DNA from: Bacteroidia bacterium
GTDB lineage: Bacteria; Bacteroidota; Bacteroidia; SpSt-205
Direction of reading: 5' to 3'
Length of the DNA: 58,741 nt
NCBI GenBank assembly: GCA_025057135.1
Contig: JANWXY010000027.1
Location: 1 to 58,741 of the forward strand
The notes beneath the pieces are model-generated. The model did not search any database. It was not told the origin of the DNA and saw nothing but the letters and a program-made list of their open reading frames with translations. Each line of letters opens with the position of its first letter. Position 1 is the stretch's first letter. The position numbers and the translations under genes are program-made. Below, piece by piece: positions 50,790 to 56,986 of the stretch.

Positions 50790-51299
50790 ATGCAACCATT
50801 AGTCGGGATAATCATGGGAAGCGCCAGTGATGCGGCTATTATGGATGCCGCAAAGGCTATCATGGAGGAGTTCAATGTACCGTATGAATACACCATAGTC
50901 TCTGCTCATCGCACTCCCGATAGGCTCTGGGCATATGGCCGTACCGCGGTAGAACGCGGCCTCAAGGTAATTATAGCTGCGGCGGGTGGTGCTGCCCATC
51001 TGCCGGGAATGATAGCGAGCTTGACCCCTCTGCCAGTGATAGGCGTGCCGATTCGCTCCTCTCAGTCGCTCATGGGAATAGACTCTTTATTCTCCATTGT
51101 ACAAATGCCTAAAGGCATCCCCGTAGCTACCGTAGCTGTGGATAATGCCGTAAATGCAGCTCTTCTGTCTATACGAATTTTATCCGTGGCCGACGATACT
51201 CTGCTAAAAAAACTGATTAGTTATCAGGAAAAGCTCCGTACCGAGGCCCTCCAGCCTCTTTTCTCAGAGTCTCAACGCTTCCATTCGGTATCTTTGTGA
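50790..51299 (+). CDS. purE: 5-(carboxyamino)imidazole ribonucleotide mutase, class I PurE
   Basis: Purine biosynthesis: converts N5-CAIR to CAIR. 169 residues. Visible are GIIMGSASDAAIMDAA, TIVSAHRTPDRLWAYG, IIAAAGGAAHLPGMIASLTPLPVIGVP and QMPKGIPVATVAVDNA, all class I PurE. The partner purK is not adjacent. The following gene starts 30 bases on. Confidence 0.95.
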   Translation: MQPLVGIIMGSASDAAIMDAAKAIMEEFNVPYEYTIVSAHRTPDRLWAYGRTAVERGLKVIIAAAGGAAHLPGMIASLTPLPVIGVPIRSSQSLMGIDSLFSIVQMPKGIPVATVAVDNAVNAALLSIRILSVADDTLLKKLISYQEKLRTEALQPLFSESQRFHSVSL

Positions 51300-51329: not shown

Positions 51330-51971
51330 ATGACTACACGCACGGTAAGTTTAGCCCTTCTTGGGCTGACCCTTCTGGGTTTTTCCCAGACGACGGAAAA
51401 GGACGCCAAAAAAGAAATCCAACGGCGAGCTATCAAGGAGGCTCGTAAAGAAGCCAAAAAGTTCAAACGAGCGGGCTATGATGTAACTCCGGGCTCCCTA
51501 CCGATGGAAAAACAGCTGGAATATACATGGATACGGCTCTATCAGCGCGACAATGCCGGACAATCCGTATTTCTGAGCGCTGATGGAAATGCCGTCGCCG
51601 AGACGCGCACCGCCGCTGAAATGCAAGCAATTGAAGCGGCTAAGCTCAACTTAGCTGGTCAGCTTGAGACCTTCATCCGCGCTATCATCGAAGCAAATAT
51701 CGCTAATGCTCAGCTCAATGCCCAAGAAGCTTCATCGGTTACGGAGTTTCTCACAGCTGCGAAAAATGTAATCGCAACCTCTATCGGGCAGGTAGAACCT
51801 GCATTCAAAATTTACCGAAATCTACCAAATAAAAATGTAGAGGTGAACGTCAAGCTCCTTGTTAGCCGAGAACAGGTGCTCCAACAGGCTAAAAAGCAAG
51901 TTCGCGAAGAGCTACGCGAGCGCCTCAAAGGCCTTCAAGATAAGGTAGATAAGCTCTTGCCACTCCAATAA
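51330..51971 (+). CDS. Exported Bacteroidota protein of the LPP20-like type, first of the caspase locus
   Basis: 213 residues. Signal peptide MTTRTVSLALLGLTLLGFSQ, then a Lys/Glu-rich stretch (KKEIQRRAIKEARKEAKKFKRAGYDVTPGSLPMEKQLE). A conserved region follows (AVAETRTAAEMQAIEAAKLNLAGQLET....ANAQLNAQEASSVTEFLTAAKNVIATSIGQV...YRNLPNKNVEVNVKLLVSREQVLQQA). I recognise this as a family widespread in Bacteroidota, resembling LPP20-type proteins. Function unknown. Its stop overlaps the next start (TAATG). Confidence 0.75.
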   Translation: MTTRTVSLALLGLTLLGFSQTTEKDAKKEIQRRAIKEARKEAKKFKRAGYDVTPGSLPMEKQLEYTWIRLYQRDNAGQSVFLSADGNAVAETRTAAEMQAIEAAKLNLAGQLETFIRAIIEANIANAQLNAQEASSVTEFLTAAKNVIATSIGQVEPAFKIYRNLPNKNVEVNVKLLVSREQVLQQAKKQVREELRERLKGLQDKVDKLLPLQ

Positions 51972-52825
51972 TGAGACTGCTCTGGATAACTGTGGGGGGA
52001 GCTCTACTGTTTGCCCAGGAGAAGAGCATTTCAGGACAGGCAGAGGTAGAGCTCCTCCCCGGTTGGTCCGTGGAGCGTGCTCAGCGACAAGCGCTCCAAC
52101 TCGCTATCCTAAATGCCATAGAGAGCGCTTTCCCCACTCATGTCGCTCGTACCAGCAAGTATATATTGGACAATCGCGTAAGAGGTCAAACAGCTCAGAC
52201 TCACAGCTACTTTTACCTGACCGCTGACCAATATCTAAGCGGTGAATGGCTACAGACCACCGAAGTTCGGTACTCCACCGAAGTGCGCAAAGGACAAATC
52301 TGGATAACCTGTAAAGTGAAAGGGAAAGCGCGCCCTCGCACTCAGCCTGCGCTTCCCTTGGAATTGAAAACCCTACGCTGTCGCGATACCGCCCGCTGCA
52401 CCAGTTTGGATTTCATAGCAGGTGACCCGCTTTACTTGTACTTTCGTTCGCCTGTACCTGGTTATTTACAGGTTTTTTGGGAAGATTCGGGCTTTGTATT
52501 TCGGCTACTGCCCTACCAGAATCGGCGTCAAAATGCTGAATATATTCGTGCCGATAGCAGCTATATGTTTTTCGCCCCTGATAAACGCTCTGAGGCATTC
52601 TGGACAGATGAGCTCATTCTGACCGCAGAAAAGCCAGAAGTCCTCCATCGGCTGTATGTGGTATTCTCACCTCATCCTTTGAGTGCTCCACCTGAGCAGT
52701 ATGACGCGTCGACCGGCTTTCATCGCATAAGTATAGACGCCTTCCAAGAATGGCTTTTATCAGAGAGGCTTCGTATGCCAGAACTGAATCTACGACTTTT
52801 GGACCTAAGCGTGCGTCAAAAATAG
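51971..52825 (+). CDS. Exported DUF4384-domain protein
   Basis: 284 residues. Signal peptide MRLLWITVGGALLFAQ. The N-terminal domain (residues about 20-115) has the 'A....A...A...AIESAFPTHV' helix seen in LPP20-like domains. Residues about 150-250 are a DUF4384 domain (DFIAGDPLYLYFRSPVPGYLQVFWEDSGFVFRLLPY..., later ELILTAEKP). DUF4384 often occurs together with bacterial caspase-like peptidases. Lies between the LPP20-like and WD40-caspase genes, 5 bases before the latter. Confidence 0.8.
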   Translation: MRLLWITVGGALLFAQEKSISGQAEVELLPGWSVERAQRQALQLAILNAIESAFPTHVARTSKYILDNRVRGQTAQTHSYFYLTADQYLSGEWLQTTEVRYSTEVRKGQIWITCKVKGKARPRTQPALPLELKTLRCRDTARCTSLDFIAGDPLYLYFRSPVPGYLQVFWEDSGFVFRLLPYQNRRQNAEYIRADSSYMFFAPDKRSEAFWTDELILTAEKPEVLHRLYVVFSPHPLSAPPEQYDASTGFHRISIDAFQEWLLSERLRMPELNLRLLDLSVRQK

Positions 52826-52830
52826 GCGAT

Positions 52831-54729
52831 ATGTTTCAGCATATGATACAAAAGCGGTCGGGAAGGTTTTCCTTCCTCCGTACCTTGAGATCACTTGGTC
52901 AGCTATATGCCATCATAGGAGGAATATCTGGCCCCGCGCTGGCTCAGCCTTACAAGGATTTAGAAGGGCATACTGGCGCAGTGTATGCTTTGACTTTTTC
53001 TCCGGACTCGCGATATCTACTTTCTGCGGGAAGCGATCGTACCGTGCGGCTGTGGCATATGCCACACGGGACACTCTTAGCCCGCTTTGGCGGGACATCT
53101 GCAAGCATAAATGCCATAACGCCTCTCTCCGATAGTCTCGGAACCTTCTGGGGAGCTTCCAGTGATGGTAAGGTTTATCAGTGGAGGCTAAAAGATTACA
53201 AAGAGAAGGCCAGCATGGCGCCTATCCGACCGCTCAGAACGGAAAATTTAGCTAAAAGGGTGCTCAAGTCTTCCCCCATAGAGCCCTGGGAGGGCATCGT
53301 TCATCATCCGACCCGCCCCATCATATATGTAGTTGGACGTGGGGGGTTGGTCGTGGAATGGGACACAGAGGAAGGTTGGCTTCAAACCTATCGGGATACA
53401 GCTGGTGTGGCTTATACTCTCCTCATACCGTCGCATGCGAAGAGCCTTTATGTCGGAAGCGGTTCAGGTTCTCTCATAGCATTAGACCCACAGACTTTAT
53501 CTGTCCAGAAAACCCTGCGCGGACACATCCGAGGCATCCGAGGATTAGCGCTAAGCCCTGACCAACGAACACTCGCCAGCGCTGGCTTAGATGGCAAGAT
53601 TATGCTCTGGACGATACCAGAGGGCCTACGCACCAAGACTCTGGAGAAGCATACAGAAGGTGCCCGAGCCGTGGCTTTCAGCCCAGATGGACGCTATCTT
53701 GCAAGTGTAGGGAAAGATGGGCTGCTGTGTCTATGGGCACTCCCCACGGGAAGATTAGAAAAAACATTAGATTTAGGCGTACCTCTCTGGACTGTCACCT
53801 TTAGCCCAAACGGTCAATATCTCATCGTCGGGGGAGAAGCTGGACTCCTGCGTCTATGGCGTATAGACCAACTGGGTATCCGACCGATTCAAGTGATCGC
53901 CGAGACAGACTCTCTATATGCTCCTCCTACGGATCTTCAAGACAATATCCCTCAATGCCGCACTCAGCAAACCCATCGCTACGCTTTTATAGTAGGGAAT
54001 GAAGATTACCGCAGCTTTCAACCGACCTTCACCCCAGCGATGAATGTACCCTATGCCATACGAGATGCCTACGCTTTCCGAGTATATGCAGAGCAGGTAT
54101 TGGGTGTGCCTAATCTAAACATTGTCTTTCTCCAGAATGCCACTGCCGCTCAGATAGAAAGAGAGCTTGAAAAGCTCCTTTTGTTGATTGGACCAAGTCG
54201 GGGGAAAGCTGAGATATTCTTCTACTACGCTGGACATGGCGTTCCTCATCCGCAGACGCAGGAGAGTTATATCTTACCTGTGGATGCTGCGCCCACAGCC
54301 CCTGATCGCGGCGGCATACGCCTTACCGATTTAGTACAGAAACTCGGTGGGAGCGGCGCTGGAAAGGTCTGGCTTATCTTAGATGCCTGTTTCAGTGGCG
54401 GCGCCAGAGAAGAAAGTCCCTTGGCCGCTCGAGGAATTCGTCTGCGTCCTAAGCCAGTAGTCCTCTCAGGCCCTGTAATACTTATTTCAGCTACCTCCGC
54501 AGATGAGGAAGCCCTACCCTACCATCAAGCACGACATGGACTTTTCACCTACTTTCTACTCAAGGCCCTCAAGCTTAAGGGCTGCACCAACACACCTATA
54601 GAGGCTATCTTGGAAGAAGCGGCGGCTGAAACCGCTAGGTATAGCCTGCTTCTTCATAATAAACTCCAACGCCCCACTTGGATTATTAGTCCCGCTCTTT
54701 CAGAACAAATACTCACCAATCCCTGGTAA
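52831..54729 (+). CDS. Exported WD40-repeat caspase-family (C14) peptidase
   Basis: 632 residues from ATG 52831. An N-terminal signal-like segment (RTLRSLGQLYAIIGGISGPALAQ) is followed by about seven WD40 blades (e.g. GHTGAVYALTFSPDSRYLLSAGSDRTVRLW, ARAVAFSPDGRYLASVGKDGLLCLW) over residues about 42-350. The C-terminal peptidase domain begins near RYAFIVGNEDY. The catalytic dyad is visible: H469 in FYYAGHG and C520 in LILDACFSGG. This is the orthocaspase/metacaspase type (basic-residue specificity in characterised members). A signal peptide places it in the periplasm or outside. The open frame reaches back to 52750 inside the previous gene. Confidence 0.88.
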   Translation: MFQHMIQKRSGRFSFLRTLRSLGQLYAIIGGISGPALAQPYKDLEGHTGAVYALTFSPDSRYLLSAGSDRTVRLWHMPHGTLLARFGGTSASINAITPLSDSLGTFWGASSDGKVYQWRLKDYKEKASMAPIRPLRTENLAKRVLKSSPIEPWEGIVHHPTRPIIYVVGRGGLVVEWDTEEGWLQTYRDTAGVAYTLLIPSHAKSLYVGSGSGSLIALDPQTLSVQKTLRGHIRGIRGLALSPDQRTLASAGLDGKIMLWTIPEGLRTKTLEKHTEGARAVAFSPDGRYLASVGKDGLLCLWALPTGRLEKTLDLGVPLWTVTFSPNGQYLIVGGEAGLLRLWRIDQLGIRPIQVIAETDSLYAPPTDLQDNIPQCRTQQTHRYAFIVGNEDYRSFQPTFTPAMNVPYAIRDAYAFRVYAEQVLGVPNLNIVFLQNATAAQIERELEKLLLLIGPSRGKAEIFFYYAGHGVPHPQTQESYILPVDAAPTAPDRGGIRLTDLVQKLGGSGAGKVWLILDACFSGGAREESPLAARGIRLRPKPVVLSGPVILISATSADEEALPYHQARHGLFTYFLLKALKLKGCTNTPIEAILEEAAAETARYSLLLHNKLQRPTWIISPALSEQILTNPW

Positions 54730-54752: not shown

Positions 54753-56912
54753 TTATGGAGCGGCAAACTTGATTTTGCACCAAGTCTCCTTTCTACGCCC
54801 ACCGACCTGCGCCCAGAGCCGTAAAAGTGTATCCGAGCTTTTGACAAGGTACCAGAGAGGCTCGCCCGGCATTTGCCAACCGAGAGTATCCCTACCTCTG
54901 CCCCATAGAATAGGTGATGTGGGAGCACTTACAGCCTCTAAAGGTACCTTAGCCCGACGAAGCCAAAGTTGGCTACCCTCCAAAGGCGAAATAATCTCTA
55001 CCTCGGTAGCGACACACTTGGGGTAATGCGGGGGAATCTGTGTCTTCTCTCTGAGAAGCGCTACTGGCGCAGGTGACATTTCGTACGGCTTGACCGATGA
55101 AGAAGCCGCAGGTAGGCAGTATATGCAGTATGAATACCTTTCGTCTATCCAGAGGTAGCGTTTATGGCTACATGTGGGGAGGGTAGGTAAATCAGACTTT
55201 CGCCAAGCTGATACTGAGGTAGGACAATCGGCACCGAACAGTAACCCAGTTTCTTTACAAACTTTGATTACCTTCACCGAAGAGGGCATCGGAGCTACTG
55301 TGGATTTGTCTAATAGAGCTGTGATCTTCTGAGCCAGAGGAAGGGCAGCACTGCGCCCTTTCAGACAACCGCTGGAAGTACCATCAGGATTACCTAACCA
55401 TACCCCGACTATATACCGCTCGTTGTAAGCGATACACCATGCGTCCCGTAAATACGCTGAGGTGCCAGTTTTGTAGCTCCAGCCATTCTGGTTCAAAATT
55501 GCGCGCACTATCCATGCGCTGGCTGAGTCCCACATAGGACGCTGCCAAGAAGTATCAGAAGTGCTACGACGCACTTTTTTGTAAATGCCAAATGTGGCTA
55601 AGGGCACATAGGCCTGTACTATCTGAAAAAGTGAAGCCTCTATGGTCCCCACAATGCCTGAATAGCCAGCATGCTCCGCCCCTTCTATACCCAAAGTCCG
55701 TAAAGTACTACCAAAAGCAGATAAACCGACTTCATGCAACAAGGCGACGGCGGGAGCATTTAGAGAGCTCCTGAGTGCCTCCGAGGCAGAAACTATACCC
55801 TGATACCTACCATGCTCAAAATTTATAGGCACATATCCATAGTAAGAGCGAGGAGCATCTAATAAGGGAGACTCAGAATGTATCTTACCACGATAGAGCG
55901 CTTCCGCCCAAAGGAAAGGCTTGAGAGTGCTCCCCACAGAACGGCGAGTTTGTATGAGGTCTATGGCACAGCTTTGGTAGCTCGTACTGGGCACATAAGC
56001 CCGAATATAGCCCGTAGCAGCCTCTACCACGAGAATAGCCCCCTCCGAAATGCCACAAGTACGCCATGCGCGAATCTCCGTCCGTAGAGTCTGCTGTACA
56101 TCTCTCTGAAGAGAGAGGCTCAAAAATAGCGTATCCGCACCCCCTCGCCAAGGAGGCAAGATGTGGGGCTCTAATCTTGGTAGCTTTCCTCTCTGAGGAA
56201 CTAATAGGGTAAGAATCGCCTGATCATAGTCACTCTGAGGAAGCAAACCTGCCTCGTACCATCGTCTGACCCAAGAGAGCGCAGCTAACCGAAATTCTTT
56301 CTCTCGTCGTAGAAAGGCTCCAATCAATCTCGGACGCTGAGAAATCAGCAGGAGGGCTGCCACCTCCAAAGGAGAAAGCTGTGCCGCTGGCTTGCCAAAG
56401 TATATTCGCGCTGCGGTTTCTATACCTTCTATATTTCCACCGAATGGCGCATAGGTAAGATAATACTCAAGTATTTGGGCTTTTGAATAGCGCAGCTCTA
56501 TGCCTATGGCCCAGAAAATCTCAGATATTTTCCTAAATATAGTTCGTTCGCCAGGTCGCCATAGACGAGCCAACTGCATCGTAAGGGTAGAGGCCCCCTG
56601 ACGATATCCAAACAGGGTATTCCATGTCGCTCTAAAAAGAGCGATTACATCCACACCGGGGTGCCACCAGAAGTTTTTATCCTCTTTATGCAAAAGCAGG
56701 GGAGCTATTCTTTCTATAGCCGCTGCCGTCGGAGGAATCCGCCATTTGCCATCTGGGGACAAACTCACATGAATAAGCTGACCTGTCTGATCTAAGAACT
56801 GTGGGGACGGAGGGGGGGGATGAGGCGCCCGCTGATACGCCTCGCCTAAGAAGATGAGCAAGCCTACTATCCCTAAGACAAAGTATCCAGCGGAAATGCG
56901 TATTATGCTCAC
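54753..56912 (-). CDS. pbpC: Penicillin-binding protein 1C
   Basis: Bifunctional class A PBP, about 719 residues. One membrane segment (GYFVLGIVGLLIFLGEAY). The glycosyltransferase (GT51) domain has LHKEDKNFWWHPGVD, RQGASTLTMQLARL and YLTYAPFGGNIEGIETAARIYFGK. The transpeptidase has GSTLKPFLW (SxxK), SSLNAPAV (SxN) and KTGTS. The last about 100 residues form the BiPBP_C domain that defines PbpC (ISPLEGSQLWL...). The alpha-2-macroglobulin partner usually encoded next to pbpC is absent here. Start GTG 56912 is preferred over TTG 56927; neither has a clear promoter box. Confidence 0.92.
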   Translation of the reverse strand: MSIIRISAGYFVLGIVGLLIFLGEAYQRAPHPPPPSPQFLDQTGQLIHVSLSPDGKWRIPPTAAAIERIAPLLLHKEDKNFWWHPGVDVIALFRATWNTLFGYRQGASTLTMQLARLWRPGERTIFRKISEIFWAIGIELRYSKAQILEYYLTYAPFGGNIEGIETAARIYFGKPAAQLSPLEVAALLLISQRPRLIGAFLRREKEFRLAALSWVRRWYEAGLLPQSDYDQAILTLLVPQRGKLPRLEPHILPPWRGGADTLFLSLSLQRDVQQTLRTEIRAWRTCGISEGAILVVEAATGYIRAYVPSTSYQSCAIDLIQTRRSVGSTLKPFLWAEALYRGKIHSESPLLDAPRSYYGYVPINFEHGRYQGIVSASEALRSSLNAPAVALLHEVGLSAFGSTLRTLGIEGAEHAGYSGIVGTIEASLFQIVQAYVPLATFGIYKKVRRSTSDTSWQRPMWDSASAWIVRAILNQNGWSYKTGTSAYLRDAWCIAYNERYIVGVWLGNPDGTSSGCLKGRSAALPLAQKITALLDKSTVAPMPSSVKVIKVCKETGLLFGADCPTSVSAWRKSDLPTLPTCSHKRYLWIDERYSYCIYCLPAASSSVKPYEMSPAPVALLREKTQIPPHYPKCVATEVEIISPLEGSQLWLRRAKVPLEAVSAPTSPILWGRGRDTLGWQMPGEPLWYLVKSSDTLLRLWAQVGGRRKETWCKIKFAAP

Positions 56913-56986
56913 ATGCAGATTAGACAAGTACAGCCGAGAGGGTAGCTGTCGTATAGCTTACAAGTTAGGCGATTTTCTAAAAGAAT

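Follow-up and report, generated by a model that had tools for sequence, protein, structure and literature searches.

Three plus-strand open reading frames (ORFs), recognised by ORF calling and by reading the sequence, lie tightly packed between positions 51330 and 54729 of the window (the whole 58,741-nucleotide stretch of DNA that was analysed), in the order gene 1, gene 2, gene 3 (Table 1). The gene 1 stop and the gene 2 start have one base in common (TAATG at 51969–51973) and 5 bases separate the gene 2 stop from the gene 3 start, an arrangement that had been given in a preliminary description of the locus and is borne out by the ORFs. For gene 3 a start at 52831 was adopted, rather than the 52750 of the ORF list; this yields the His469/Cys520 numbering used here, and orthologues of gene 3 begin near the same ‘AQPYK’ junction. 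The cluster is flanked on its 5′ side by a purE-like gene (50790–51299) and on its 3′ side by a convergent, minus-strand penicillin-binding-protein-like gene (54753–56927), both named from their translations; no sigma or anti-sigma gene adjoins it in the window. The genome from which the window derives amounts to 2.08 Mb in 94 contigs and is 98% complete; going by isolate names, it and its relatives presumably come from hot springs.

Table 1. Features of the three-gene cluster, in window coordinates.
Feature	Position	Strand	Basis
Gene 1 (P1), putatively exported, 213 aa	51330..51971	+	ORF; no Pfam family at threshold
Gene 1 signal-peptide-like segment, ~19–20 aa	51330..51389	+	Sequence and hydrophobicity scan across orthologues
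Gene 2 (P2), putatively exported, 284 aa, N-terminal domain plus DUF4384	51971..52825	+	
DUF4384 domain of gene 2	52412..52678	+	Pfam profile search of genome
Gene 3 (P3), putatively exported WD40-caspase, 632 aa	52831..54729	+	Pfam, orthologue alignment
Gene 3 N-terminal signal-peptide-like extension, ending ...ALA|QPYK	52831..52944	+	
Gene 3 WD40 region, ~seven blades, residues 40–345	52948..53865	+	Pfam, blade Trp
Gene 3 Peptidase_C14 (caspase) domain	53977..54681	+	Pfam
Gene 3 catalytic His469 codon (AGHG)	54235..54237	+	Invariant in alignments
Gene 3 catalytic Cys520 codon (DACFSG)	54388..54390	+	Invariant in alignments

To judge from their sequences, all three products and their relatives look exported. 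Inspection and a hydrophobicity scan found a hydrophobic N-terminus here and in every complete orthologue of all three proteins, which upholds the signal peptides originally proposed. On inspection of gene 3, the hydrophobic N-terminus ran up to A/SQPY[KR] in 12/12 orthologues, with short versions (13–22 aa) ending at the same A/SQPYK, and lipoboxes were present in the gene-1 relatives of genomes G012 and G400.

The gene 3 product matched Pfam WD40 at 130.6 bits and Peptidase_C14 at 61.6 bits, against a cut-off of 21.4 for the latter. A seven-bladed propeller had been claimed, and this stands, with the WD40 assignment coming from Pfam and the blade number from counting by eye: blade tryptophans lie at 75, 118, 177, 260, 302 and 343, and one further blade is without Trp. 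The His469/Cys520 dyad, also part of the earlier reading, was confirmed as intact and invariant among aligned orthologues, indicating that this is not a pseudo-orthocaspase. Residues D412 and D518 align with acidic positions of metacaspases and MALT1, positions that have a role in the S1 pocket. Taken with the cleavage at basic residues reported for orthocaspases (PMC6426788), the alignment leads to the prediction that the gene 3 caspase would cleave after Arg or Lys. Two cysteines, C376 and C585, are shared by all 11 caspases of the genus but missing from every distant caspase aligned, a pattern that would fit a disulfide made outside the cytoplasm. At the C585 position, after the p20 core, several distant exported caspases (L092, L101, L133 and L138) carry an EF-hand-like Asp/Asn loop; the loop is absent from the caspases of the window genus, which have C585 in its place.

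Assignment of gene 2 to DUF4384 (PF14326), as first described, proved borderline, with 25.8 bits in a Pfam scan and 28.4 bits in the genome search lying to either side of the cut-off of 27; a distant gene 2 homologue scores above that cut-off. An N-terminal FlgT_N-like match was found in the G058 homologue only. Two cysteines, C137 and C143, are invariant in the orthologue alignment, and the structural model (pLDDT 83) gave as its best, weak, match a Campylobacter flagellar periplasmic scaffold (9hmf, E 4e-3).

The LPP20-like label initially attached to gene 1 fell below every family threshold tried. Nothing in Pfam reached its gathering cut-off, with LPP20 (PF02169) absent even at E≤1; a profile made from the LPP20 matches of the phylum gave 6.8 bits; and profile–profile comparison (hhalign) gave E values of 0.012–0.075, short of significance. 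Membership of LPP20 is thus unsupported by these three results. The gene 1 model (pLDDT 65) has a b-b-a-a-b-b-a order of strands and helices that is compatible with an LPP20-like fold; a fold search with this low-confidence model returned no significant match, nor did a PDB sequence search with gene 1 and gene 2. Like LPP20, FlgP and FlgT_N proteins (PF02169, PF16548), the gene 1 product would be a small exported or lipoprotein component of the envelope, and the proteins in the equivalent position in G058 and G095 give weak LPP20 scores, whereas gene 1 itself misses the LPP20 threshold. Gene 1 is therefore best described as LPP20-like in topology and position only.

Within the genus, each of the three genes is single-copy in 11/11 congeners (the window genome and 10 others), and gene 3 is the sole C14 gene detected in each. 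Identity to the window copies is 77–85% for gene 1, 60–77% for gene 2 and 66–78% for gene 3. The tight linkage seen in the window holds for 8/11 congeners, in which the three genes are adjacent; in the remainder (G002, G004 and G010) the gene 1–gene 2 pair is kept but the caspase is found at another site in the genome, among neighbours that differ from one genome to the next, so that co-transcription is not required. In gene trees these three and the window genome form a single clade; the main splits are common to the tree of genes 1 and 2 and that of gene 3. An exported protein of ~1,300 aa is encoded near gene 1 in three congeners (L070:1738–5616, L069:3933–7826, L066:1363–5265); its gene lies directly upstream of gene 1 in G008 and in G009, while in G005, where the protein was recognised as an S8 subtilase, a single gene separates the two.

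The trio is not confined to the window or to the genus, so that the condition set for refuting the preliminary description, a lack of co-occurrence beyond the window, does not apply. Co-occurrence was complete: gene 1 was found in 15 genomes (the 11 congeners, G012, G013, the genome of L088 (JAHBTG010000011.1) and G400), every one of which has a DUF4384 protein and a C14 caspase as well. In 12/15 these cluster with gene 1, and since the arrangement is conserved across the 15 genomes it is more than chance. The gene order of G012 (gene 1 identity 62%) is that of the window, its caspase running off the contig end, and L088 keeps the trio together. In G013, a member of the same class with 40% gene 1 identity, the caspase comes first, ahead of gene 1 and then gene 2, from which it follows that the cluster survives reshuffling; here TPR and CARDB-like domains take the place of WD40 in the caspase. 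Searched against a 395-genome sample of the phylum, a gene-1 profile matched only the window genome and G400. In the latter one lipoprotein holds both a gene-1-type domain (E 1.7e-22, the profile having been built without the G400 sequence) and DUF4384 (36 bits). It lies in a tightly packed run (L092:4982–10715) comprising, in order, an exported 281-aa protein, a product that weakly matches sigma region 4, a zf-HC2 protein, the gene-1-type/DUF4384 lipoprotein, an exported 447-aa protein and a caspase.

At the level of the phylum, association of DUF4384 with caspases was pronounced. DUF4384 was present in 21 genomes of a 148-genome sample, and when the window genome was set aside, a Pfam C14 match lay no more than 6.5 kb from DUF4384 in 12/20, where C14 density predicts 0.23 (P about 1e-20, random placement assumed). 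Most of the caspases near DUF4384 have a signal-peptide-like start. In G120 the domain is joined to a caspase in one protein, and fusions to papain-like C1 proteases occur within the same phylum, the latter suggesting that DUF4384 may play an accessory part in exported cysteine proteases; in G179 and G187 it shares one reading frame with LPP20. Further exported caspase–DUF4384 clusters were found in G058, G040, G296 and G095; those of G058 and G095 also include weakly LPP20-like proteins. A related exported domain sits beside caspase/DUF4384 clusters in four genomes (L092:9870–10715, L076:6750–7655, L101:9926–10489, L138:6584–7156), with E values of 1e-14 for G400/G040 and 1e-22 for G095/G296.

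Five genomes from two families encode an exported caspase, an exported DUF4384 protein and a CHASE2-guanylate cyclase in a row (L130–L134; for example L133:4293–9307, minus strand), WD40 being Pfam-confirmed in L133 only. These rows suggest caspase-linked cyclic nucleotide signalling. The window genus has a CHASE2 protein of its own, without a cyclase domain (L178:6757–7875, C76, in the window genome), which is single-copy in 11/11 congeners and followed by a gene for a ~306-aa exported protein in the loci read. Within the genus this CHASE2 gene is unlinked to the caspase cluster, and it was dropped as a candidate partner for that reason.

On balance, the trio probably constitutes one functional envelope module, in which genes 1 and 2 act in scaffolding or regulation and the exported WD40-caspase cuts, in the service of homeostasis or sensing. 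The products of genes 1 and 2, perhaps as sensors or adaptors, would jointly provide scaffolding and regulation, most likely in the periplasm or on the inward side of the outer membrane; the propeller would recruit a client or other partner, which the caspase domain would cleave after Arg or Lys. Complex formation, outer-membrane association, proteolytic activity with Arg/Lys specificity and the sensing role are what we infer from the conservation, domain content and neighbourhoods described above. Envelope homeostasis or sensing is favoured over defence or cell killing because inheritance of the genes is vertical, universal and single-copy. Cleavage may be signalled to the cytoplasm, as the CHASE2-cyclase and zf-HC2 anti-sigma-like neighbours of relatives would allow. 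Extended to the Bacteroidota, this would be a caspase-based periplasmic signalling system, with an exported WD40-caspase under a DUF4384/LPP20-like outer-membrane scaffold and output through a CHASE2-cyclase or an anti-sigma factor, a generalisation that we regard as tentative and rather doubtful.

Prokaryotic caspases are often assigned to cell-death or conflict systems, surface or fratricidal roles have been proposed for secreted ones (PMC3501461), and the gene 3 caspase gave a 58-bit match to a PADLOC caspase model, all of which might be taken to favour an effector of programmed death, fratricide or anti-phage defence that, once triggered, would harm the cell's own envelope or that of a neighbour. 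Such a role is nevertheless quite improbable: the genes are single-copy in 11/11 congeners and apparently vertically inherited in small genomes, whereas defence genes are patchy; the EACC1 caspase model (NF047832) scored 58.9 bits against a curated cut-off of 140; and profile searches detected no NTPase, TIR or other conflict domain in the three genes. With the EACC1 cut-off missed and the PADLOC matches unspecific, membership of a defence or conflict system was rejected.

General maturation or turnover of the envelope, with the protease processing secreted cargo and genes 1 and 2 acting in a chaperone-like manner without signalling, seems unlikely, as the CHASE2-cyclase and zf-HC2 neighbours in relatives indicate signalling, although the ~1,300-aa exported protein near gene 1 in G008, G009 and G005 (the S8 subtilase in G005) would suit it, as would the DUF4384–C1 protease fusions with their implication of an accessory domain. 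Genes 1 and 2 could also be a separate outer-envelope scaffold unit, with the caspase a neighbour by history and no function shared, given that they are adjacent wherever both were read (fused in G400) and that G002, G004 and G010 have the caspase at an unlinked site. That possibility is made very slight by the presence of a C14 caspase in all 15 gene-1 genomes, mostly in the cluster, by retention of the trio in distant relatives despite other flanks and order, and by the recurrence of DUF4384–caspase linkage and fusion across the phylum.

The preliminary description called an extracytoplasmic caspase with dedicated exported partners functionally undefined, but an extracytoplasmic caspase as such is no novelty. 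Caspases that are secreted or surface-located were put forward for prokaryotes in 2012 (PMC3501461), and DUF4384–orthocaspase fusions are on record (PMC8283722, PMC6426788), DUF4384 occurring in the same protein in 23/473 cyanobacterial orthocaspases (PMC6426788, PMC8283722). Exported orthocaspases and DUF4384–caspase fusions are thus already known, and the three-gene association appears to be a variation on them; no description of it was found in the open-access papers searched. WD40 is the commonest partner domain of prokaryotic caspases (PMC3501461), and bacterial orthocaspases with WD40 (PMC3501461, PMC8283722) resemble gene 3 in the C14 domain, the HC dyad, the WD40 partner and the acidic positions of basic P1 preference. 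Gene 3 differs from them in its apparent export, in a propeller N-terminal to the caspase, in the two putatively exported partners encoded alongside and in the C376/C585 pair of the congeners. Likeness to the DUF4384 orthocaspases and kinases (PMC6426788, PMC8283722) lies in the DUF4384–caspase association. Here, in contrast, DUF4384 is on a separate, seemingly exported protein with an N-terminal domain of its own, beside a third such protein. Gingipains (C25) and clostripain-like proteases (C11) are exported Bacteroidota proteases of clan CD that have the caspase fold and cut after Arg or Lys. They belong to peptidase families different from that of gene 3, in which the C14 domain stops at residue 617/632 and so leaves no room for a T9SS C-terminal domain.

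With this cluster, the function of secreted prokaryotic caspases becomes a question testable in one compact, single-copy operon with exported partners, and DUF4384, a domain of unknown function, gains a consistent context as an accessory of exported cysteine proteases (C14, C1). The module recurs across the phylum, with signalling neighbours in some relatives.

A fourth gene, whose product of ~155–167 aa has several hydrophobic stretches and matches nothing in Pfam (L066:9966–10433; L181:6972–7436), is single-copy but unlinked in the window genome (L181:6972–7436, C81), G002, G004 and G010, and is positioned after the caspase in G003 and G005–G009, and partly so in G001.
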